The position numbers and the translations under genes are program-made. From Methylococcaceae bacterium (lineage in GTDB: Bacteria > Pseudomonadota > Gammaproteobacteria > Methylococcales > Methylococcaceae), in contig CADDZF010000001.1 in NCBI GenBank assembly GCA_902812445.1, positions 1 through 64,000 of the forward strand: a DNA stretch of 64,000 bases. The letters run 5' to 3'. The notes beneath the pieces were generated by a model. The model worked only from the letters and a program-made list of their open reading frames with translations, ran no database searches and had not been told where the DNA came from. Positions 20,299 to 57,143 of this stretch are shown one piece after another (position 1 is the stretch's first letter; each line of letters begins with the position of its first letter).

Positions 20299-20314
20299 GC
20301 ACTCGGGACTTTTT

Positions 20315-20638
20315 ATGAGCGCGATGCTTCCGGAGTCGGCCGTTCCGGATTTCGCGGCAGCGGCTACGGGAAACCCGCTTGTCCCGCTCGCCGACCTCGA
20401 GAGGAATAACGCCGTCCTTTACGGTTACCCCAAGGATAATACGCCGGGCTGCGCCCAGAGGCCGGGCATCTCGCGCGATAGTCTCAAAAGCCGTGAACGC
20501 TTCAAGAAAAAATTCAACCCTGCGTTCGACTTGATCGCGGATGGAGATGAAATCCTGTGCAATCTTTTCGGCGTCATCGAAACAAGAACGTCTACGGCAA
20601 GCGGGTACGCGGCATCGAGCGCAGCACGTTTCTATTAA
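20315..20638 (+). pseudogene. Decayed thioredoxin-dependent peroxiredoxin (Bcp/PrxQ)
   Basis: VLYGYPKDNTPGC then directly ...SRDSLKSRERFKKKFNPAFDLIADGDEILCNLFGVIE (internal segment missing), frameshift to KNVYGKRVRGIERSTFLL, no C-terminus. Confidence 0.85.
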
Positions 20639-20780
20639 CCCGGCCCTTAAATAGGCCGGGTTAATCCGGGTCAGGGAGTCGAAAGCGAGGCGCCAAGCCG
20701 CGTGAGCCAAGGCTGGGCGTGTACCGACCTTGGCGATGGCCGGAAATACCAGGAGGGTATTTTCTGGCCGGAATAATAAT
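20634..20780 (+). repeat. MITE-like structured repeat, copy A
   Basis: Aligns with the reverse complement of 56102-56244; ends ATTAACCCGGCC ... GGCCGGAATAAT. Confidence 0.75.
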
Positions 20781-21002
20781 CGATAAACGCGGAATACTGG
20801 TTCGCCAGTGGCGCGAGGACGCCGGCAAAGGCCATTGCGAATAGGTTTTCCCGACGCTGCGCGAGCAGGCGAAATAAGCCCTTCAATGCCGGGTGTCAGC
20901 ACGAGCCGATGAACGGTTCGCAGAGCAATGGCACAGCGCGTGCTCGAAGGCGCAGGATCATCCACATCGAGCCCTTCACAGCTATTTGACAACTGAAGCC
21001 GC

Positions 21003-55416: not shown

Positions 55417-56055
55417 TCACGCAAGCCCGGACTTGTGTGGATATTCGCACAAGTCCGCGATCACGCAACTGCCGCAGCGCGGCTTACGGGCAATACAGGT
55501 GTAGCGGCCGTGCAGGATCAAGAGATGATGGACGTCTTTCTTGAAGGCGTCGGGTACGTATTTTTCGAGTCCTCGTTCCACCTCGAGCACATTCCTGCCA
55601 GGTGCCAGACCGGTGCGGTTGGCGACCCGGAAGATGTGCCGGTCGACGGCGATGACGGATTGGCCAAAGGCCGTGTTGAGAATCACGCTGGCGGTCTTCC
55701 GTCCGACGCCGGGGAGGGCTTCCAGCTCTTCGCGCGTCTCGGGTACGCGCCCACCGTGCTTGTCCAGCAGAATGCGCGATAGCGCCAGGATGTGCCTGGC
55801 CTTGCTGTTGTAAAACCCGATCGTCTTGATGTATTCCTTCAATCCCTCTTCCCCCAGTGCCAAAATCGCGGCTGGCGTATTCGCCACCGGAAACAGCTTC
55901 GCCGTCGCCTTGTTGACGCCTTTGTCCGTCGACTGGGCCGACAGGATGACCGCTACCAGGAGCTCGAAGGGAGTCGCATAATGGAGCTCCGTGGCCGGAT
56001 TAGGAATCGTGGCGGCCAGGCGCTCGAGGATGAGTTTGCGTTTTGCCTGATTCAT
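55417..56055 (-). CDS. nth: Endonuclease III
   Basis: LPGVGRKTASVILN HhH and C-terminal 4Fe-4S Cys (CIARKPRCGSCVIADLC). Confidence 0.96.
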   Translation of the reverse strand: MNQAKRKLILERLAATIPNPATELHYATPFELLVAVILSAQSTDKGVNKATAKLFPVANTPAAILALGEEGLKEYIKTIGFYNSKARHILALSRILLDKHGGRVPETREELEALPGVGRKTASVILNTAFGQSVIAVDRHIFRVANRTGLAPGRNVLEVERGLEKYVPDAFKKDVHHLLILHGRYTCIARKPRCGSCVIADLCEYPHKSGLA

Positions 56056-56101: not shown

Positions 56102-56244
56102 ATTGTTATTCCGGCCCGAAATACCTGGTATTTCGGGCCATCGCCCAGGCCAGTACCCGCCCGGCATTGGCTCACGCAGCTTGGCGCCGCGCTTTCGGCT
56201 CCCTGCCCTTTTATTAATTCGGCCTATTGAAGGGCCGGGTTAAT
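56102..56244 (-). repeat. MITE-like structured repeat, copy B
   Basis: Reverse complement aligns with 20634-20780; contains palindrome GGCCCGAAATACC-A-GGTATTTCGGGCC. Confidence 0.75.
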
Positions 56245-56393
56245 AGTTGGCGGTGAAGCGGAGGCGATGAGCGCTTGAAGCATCCGCTTACATCCGTTGC
56301 CTTTATCTGGCAGAATCCGCTTATCCGGCGAAGCCGTGTTCCGCCCGCGGCGGCATATGCCGGAGCTTGAAATTAACTTTGCGGTCGATTGCT

Positions 56394-57143
56394 ATGAGAG
56401 AAACACCCCCCATCCGGCTCGGCGTCAACATAGACCACGTAGCGACGCTCCGTCAGGCGCGGCGGACGAAATACCCGGCGCTGCTGCAGGCCGCGCTGCT
56501 GGCAGAACAAGCCGGCGCCGATGCCATCACGGCGCACCTGCGGGAAGACCGCCGGCACATCCAGGATCGCGACATCGAGCTGCTGCGCGAGATGATTCAG
56601 ACCCGTCTGAACCTCGAAATGGCGGTGACCGGCGAGATGATTTCCATCGCTAGGCGCATCCGCCCCGCGGCGTGTTGCCTGGTTCCGGAAAAGCGGGAGG
56701 AATTGACCACCGAAGGCGGACTCAACGTGGTTGCTCAATTCGATAAAATCAGCCGGGCCTCCAACGCACTTAGCGATGCAGACATCGAAGTCTCGCTGTG
56801 TATCGATGCCGAGCCGGCACAGGTCGATGCGGCGGCGAAAACGGGCGTACCCTTCATTGAACTGCATACCGGCCACTACGCCGATGCCGAGGATGCGACA
56901 CAGACGAAACATGAACTGGAGCGCCTGCGCCGGGCGGCGGCGCAGGCGCGTGCCGCGGGGCTCGGCGTCAATGCGGGCCATGGGCTACATTATCACAATG
57001 TCGAGGCGGTCTGCCGCATAGCGGAAATTGGTGAATTAAACATCGGTCATTCGATCATCGCCACGGCCCTTTTCACCGGTCTGGAAAAGGCCGTGGCCGA
57101 CATGAAAGCCATCATGCGGGCGGCGCGATCGCCAATGGATTGA
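56394..57143 (+). CDS. pdxJ: Pyridoxine 5'-phosphate synthase
   Basis: [31 protein letters not shown] 56394. Confidence 0.96.

Follow-up and report, generated by a model that had tools for sequence, protein, structure and literature searches.

A TA-flanked MITE with five tandem hairpins in a Methylococcaceae genome, probably mobilised by an IS630-family transposase, and its relatives with other ends

The window (the whole stretch of DNA analysed here, 64,000 nucleotides long, from contig CADDZF010000001.1 of a Methylococcaceae bacterium) contains two copies of a short repeat. Copy A lies inside a bcp/PrxQ-like peroxiredoxin pseudogene, and copy B lies 51 bp upstream of nth, in the same direction. 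The features are listed below; the limits of both copies were set by taking TA as the duplicated target.

20312..20845 (limits approximate), + strand: bcp/PrxQ-like peroxiredoxin pseudogene, interrupted by an upstream frameshift and by copy A
20633..20634: TA on the left of copy A, first copy of the duplicated target; the bcp frame is restored when the flanks are joined with one TA
20635..20776, + strand: copy A, 142 bp, TTAACCCGGCC...GGCCGGAATAA
20635..20664, + strand: hairpin 1, made up of the left terminal repeat TTAACCCGGCC and, after it, the inverted copy GGCCGGGTTAA
20666..20685, + strand: hairpin 2 region, loop CAGGGA; degenerate in copy A, intact in relatives as CCGGGGCA-GGGA-TGCCCCGG
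20686..20702, + strand: hairpin 3, CGAGGC / GCCGCG in copy A
20706..20734, + strand: hairpin 4, loop GCGTGTA
20738..20769, + strand: hairpin 5, loop CAGGAGG; the 3' arm runs into the right terminal repeat
20777..20778: TA on the right of copy A, second copy of the duplicated target
55417-56055, - strand: nth
56106..56243, - strand: copy B
56244..56245: TA that adjoins copy B on its left; CA stands on the opposite side (56104-56105)
56373-56981, - strand: open reading frame without a Pfam match, the other neighbour of copy B

When copy B is reverse-complemented, the two copies are 83% identical over their whole length (E = 3e-38), and chance is excluded as the source of this similarity. The preliminary description had paired the two segments as a MITE-like repeat with a hairpin near each end. 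They are homologous end to end, its coordinates are correct to within 4 bases, and each copy has its 5' and its 3' hairpin, with folding z-scores of -4.4 for copy A and -2.8 for copy B. On the far side of copy B, the TA has been changed to CA.

The bcp/PrxQ gene around copy A (20312-20845) is degenerate: a frameshift lies upstream of the copy, and a part of the middle of the gene is apparently missing. When the flanks of copy A are rejoined with a single TA, they read ...GIERSTFLIDKRGILVRQWRE... in the bcp frame across the junction. The peptide across it, KNVYGKRVRGIERSTFLIDKRGILVRQWRE, matches Bcp peroxiredoxins, including solved Bcp structures, with E = 3e-8.

BLAST searches of the genome of the window (G000; 3.21 Mb in 260 contigs) give at least 40 copies that are close to full length, at 86-95% identity. 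A covariance model gives 65 matches, both window copies among them; because some of these are truncated or overlapping, the number of copies, full or partial, is about 60. The repeat is short, non-coding and dispersed. Taken over 119 copies, the consensus reads TA-TTAACCCGGCC...GGCCTGATTAA-TA, with GGCCGGAATAA as the right end in the genome of the window. The terminal inverted repeats are TTAAYCCGGCC, with the ends TTAACCCGGCC / TTATTCCGGCC, TTAATCAGGCC in Methylocaldum. TA is present on the left in 98 of the 119 copies and on the right in 97. It is preceded by C or T in 112 copies and succeeded by A or G in 112, so the target can be written as YTAR. The terminal inverted repeats and sharp boundaries first seen in two copies are therefore constant over the family, the copies far exceed two, and the similarity is not limited to short GC-rich words.

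Among four species of one genus, empty orthologous loci are seen. The clearest empty site is TACAATGGCT-TA-ATTTACG, and the corresponding occupied site is TACAATGGCC-TA-[element]-TA-ATTTATG. Two insertions are apparently common to two species. Mobility is established at the level of sequence. In a DNA search of 61 relatives, the element is seen in 9 genomes, all within the GTDB family of the window, and in none of the 24 that belong to the same order but to other families. The nearest neighbour of a copy is within the same genome for 40 of 41 copies in G000, 14 of 14 in G003 and 13 of 14 in G021, and in G021 copies have a median identity of 100% to their nearest neighbour. These facts indicate lineage-specific bursts, some of them recent.

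Several individual loci are of note. A 30-bp micro-derivative (L024, 2996-3028) consists of nothing but the two terminal repeats, with TA on either side, and a copy with an internal deletion (L030, 2198-2286) has kept its TA flanks. The single copy in G074 (L225) is just upstream of a reading frame whose product begins with MPTFVRTDKCD and looks like an adenylylsulfate reductase beta subunit. In G014, G021, G026 and G030, the flanks of several copies match further dispersed repeats of high copy number, such as those around TCGTCCTGAGCCTGTCGAAGGA and GTAGGGTGGGTTAGGCG.

The likely parent of the repeat is an intact 1.1-kb IS630-family element, found by searching the IS630-type (DDE_3) loci of genomes that carry the repeat. 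One of these, G013, contains five identical units of 1116 bp (flanking TA counted in), which encode an IS630-family transposase (NF033545, 238 bits). The ends of the units read TTAACCCGGCC and then a AATACCGTAC block. TATTAACCCGGCC is present at either end, the inverted repeats extend over 27 nt at 93% identity, and the flanks are TA. Kindred copies at 84% and 77% are seen in G013 and G027, respectively. The MITE and this IS630 element coexist in G013, and beyond the ends no similarity is seen between the interior of the MITE and the IS element. A parent transposase, which the preliminary description suggested looking for, is thus probably represented in a related genome by an intact element with the same ends, and none is found in the window's own genome: its DDE_3 loci that were examined do not show matching ends, and the complete IS, used as a DNA query, gives no match in this draft of 260 contigs, in which absence is not certain. 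An autonomous parent in the same genome, as expected for an IS630-derived element of the RUP kind, is not seen in the G000 draft.

When folded, the 119-copy consensus forms five hairpins in a row, beyond the two that were first noted. The loop of hairpin 2 is GGGA, that of hairpin 4 is GCGTGTA and that of hairpin 5 is CAGGAG, while hairpin 3 is short and GC-rich. The folding energy of a Methylocaldum copy is -103 kcal/mol. No covariance model of Rfam 15 matches the element above its gathering score, and a riboswitch or other known RNA family is rejected, as the matches to HgcF, Twister-P5 and RNaseP-T are far below it.

A first model (R1), built from copies of the TTAACCCGGCC type and a single diverged MAG copy, finds clear relatives in other gammaproteobacterial families. 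A second model (R2) detects the module in 36 of the 369 gammaproteobacterial genomes sampled, the E-values being rough and the weakest few of the 36 resting on matches near 1e-4. These belong to 30 of 272 genera and to 27 families. Many of the genomes are multi-copy, and since only 8 candidates of each genome were scored, the counts per genome in this survey are to be read as "at least". G320 contains 25 copies of the module. As a control, 134 kb of unrelated loci gives one match, of 12.7 bits. No plasmid relatives are found for the two element types searched.

Among 43 diverse members, the five helices show 94.7% standard pairs, a value inflated by the fitting of the alignment to the structure. 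Doubly changed paired cells number 747, against 225 in shuffles; the distant members come from a model that assumes the structure, so the pair counts lean towards it. The covariation score is 0.856, compared with 0.205 after shuffling and at most 0.172 with slid partners. The stems of different members are visibly unlike in sequence, and yet they are near-perfect palindromes. At one locus of G079 (L281, 1015-1652), three five-hairpin units stand in succession beside a tRNA gene, and the last unit overlaps a match to the Xanthomonas sRNA sX4 that is below threshold (32.6 bits, cutoff 70).

The outer sequences of these elements are of several types: TTAACCCGGCC, (A/G)GGAA(C/G/A)C(T/G)CTGA, GCAGGCTGTTGAAAA, AGGGCACCTCGAAA and GAGAGCTTGTGA. 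In the end types examined, hairpin 1 is composed of the left terminal repeat and its own inverted copy. G320 contains 12 copies of a 1224-bp IS5-family element (NF033581, 326 bits) with the ends AGGGAAACGCTGATTTATTC / AAGGAAACGCTGATCAATCC, flanked by CTAG or TTAA. Its ends, A(A/G)GGAAACGCTGAT, match those of the five-hairpin elements in the same genome (AAGGAAACGCTGATTTATCC); the elements paired with this type of IS5 are AGGGAAACGCTGA-ended. In G362, a genome in which two end types occur on the core, another IS5-type candidate has ends that match. The loop type of hairpin 4 is not strictly linked to the end type. A resident element is matched to the ends for two transposase families only, IS630 and IS5, and no parent was identified for GCAGGCTGTTGAAAA, AGGGCACCTCGAAA or GAGAGCTTGTGA. 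The 1224-bp IS5 element of G320 is also seen as head-to-tail tandem pairs (L306/L307 and L311/L312) with a spacing of exactly 1224 bp.

These matches give good support to the view that one core has been joined to the ends of two or more transposase families, and the family appears to be modular, with a single core and swappable ends. We therefore consider the repeat to be a non-autonomous DNA transposon (MITE), probably mobilised by an IS630-type element, with an old five-hairpin core that is joined to ends of at least two transposase families; the probability of this reading is about 0.85. The MITE-like nature proposed for the two window copies is borne out by the number of copies, the constant ends, the empty sites and an autonomous element with the same terminal repeats. 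The transposase is probably borrowed from an IS630-type insertion sequence. It would bind the common ends in trans, excise the element and paste it at TA. The window's own genome may have since lost the transposase, or may have gained its copies before losing it, and individual copies would now be decaying. The interior is probably an old module of five tandem hairpins with an origin separate from the IS630 parent, joined to IS630 terminal repeats here and to IS5 terminal repeats in other gammaproteobacteria.

What the core does is a separate question, and two readings of it are both compatible with the MITE. In the first, to which we give slightly less than an even chance, the hairpins matter as DNA and have no RNA function. 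Their arms would be kept complementary by palindrome correction (template switching), or would be needed as a DNA structure in transposition, or both. Stem mismatches of the G.T and A.C kinds are about equally frequent, 83:96 (unique cases) in Methylococcaceae and 34:42 across families, so pairing is not kept by the rules of RNA wobble. Watson-Crick pairs prevail (1899 of 2041 cells). Double changes within genomes number 25, against 11.2 expected, and 16 of the 25 are Watson-Crick. Loops are inverted in individual copies, that of hairpin 1 in L018 and L165 and that of hairpin 5 in L164 and L189; the changes in these single copies include CAGGAGG to CCTCCTG and CTTAAATA to TATTTAAG. Such inversions point to recombination or template switching within palindromes and, together with the excess of double changes, fit a palindrome process at the DNA level. 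The composition of hairpin 1, a terminal repeat and its own inverse, is in the same line. A DNA-level process alone would leave unexplained why the GGA loops keep their sequence and polarity across many families while the stems are rewritten.

Those loops are the ground for the second reading, in which the core is an RNA module that binds CsrA/RsmA. It would be transcribed from a neighbouring gene, and hairpins 2 and 5 would capture CsrA through their GGA loops, so that the host message is altered or the protein is titrated. This would explain the persistence of the core, and we regard it as possible, if on the unlikely side. The loops read CANGGANG, which we take to be the extended form of the CsrA/RsmA site. 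GGA is in the loop of hairpin 2 in 40 of the 43 diverse members and in that of hairpin 5 in 38, and TCC in none; these counts include distant members that were found with a model trained on GGA loops. The loops thus show, in fixed polarity, the A(N)GGA motif of CsrA/RsmA sites (PMC4066749). By contrast, the loop of hairpin 4 exists in two near-inverted forms. CsrA is present in 11 of 11 genomes checked. Neighbours in the same direction are mildly in excess (++23 vs --9, p = 0.02), a weak signal from heuristic gene calls. On the other side, the G.T and A.C counts show no preference for RNA wobble and do not support selection on the stems as an RNA strand. Purifying selection on the GGA loops within genomes is likewise unsupported, as they vary as much as the other loops (0.07-0.08 per site vs 0.04-0.11). 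The wider proposal, a five-hairpin RNA module with two CsrA/RsmA sites that has spread through Gammaproteobacteria by repeatedly taking the ends of unrelated transposons, is doubtful. If true, it would mean that genomes are seeded with dozens of mobile CsrA-binding sites at gene borders.

Two explanations compete with the MITE itself, and both are very improbable. A REP/BIME-type repeat moved by a REP-associated tyrosine transposase (RAYT) would agree with the prominent hairpins and with the one Y1_Tnp/RAYT-like gene of the genome, but is largely refuted by the TA duplication, by terminal inverted repeats common to a DDE-type IS630 element and by the lack of a repeat copy adjoining that gene in the 2 kb examined. 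The genome has no other Y1 transposase, and this one is at a contig edge (L059, 1345-1992, contig C35). A stationary family of conserved ncRNA genes that is multi-copy by chance would account for the strong conserved structure, whereas the empty orthologous sites refute it for the Methylococcaceae copies, and the insertion into coding sequence, the clustering of copies by genome (G000, G003, G021) and a decay without strand-specific constraint also speak against it.

MITEs are usually viewed as deletion derivatives of a single parent IS. A core common to IS630-ended and IS5-ended elements in many families suggests that MITEs can keep their cargo and swap their ends. Two questions can then be put to the test: by what means a core of this kind is maintained across distances at the class level, and whether repeats scattered over a genome supply sites to the Csr/Rsm network. 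In the open-access literature, which was the scope of our search, no description of this element family was found.

Several known systems resemble the element in part. RsmX/Y/Z and CsrB/C are dedicated sRNA genes with GGA in the apical loops of their hairpins. The present element has GGA in its apical loops (CANGGANG) as well, and differs in being dispersed and mobile. The Correia/NEMIS repeats of Neisseria are also TA-flanked, intergenic MITEs, of 100-155 bp, but have 24-bp terminal repeats and other motifs, whereas the present element is a row of local hairpins (PMC2229807). CIR of Caulobacter and Brucella likewise has local hairpin arms without an end-to-end stem and exposes a conserved motif in a loop; it has two arms and GANTC, while the present element has five hairpins, an end of a known IS type and GGA loops (PMC2229807). 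RUP of Streptococcus pneumoniae is a 107-bp MITE related to IS630-Spn1 (PMC2229807). RUP is of the same size class, is likewise high in copy number and non-coding, targets TA and has terminal repeats that match an IS630-family element; the likeness is one of features, with no sequence relation expected. The present element differs from RUP in its five tandem hairpins, in a core common with IS5-ended elements and in a parent IS that is seen in relatives only. In mechanism, RUP/IS630-Spn1 is the closest precedent (PMC2229807).
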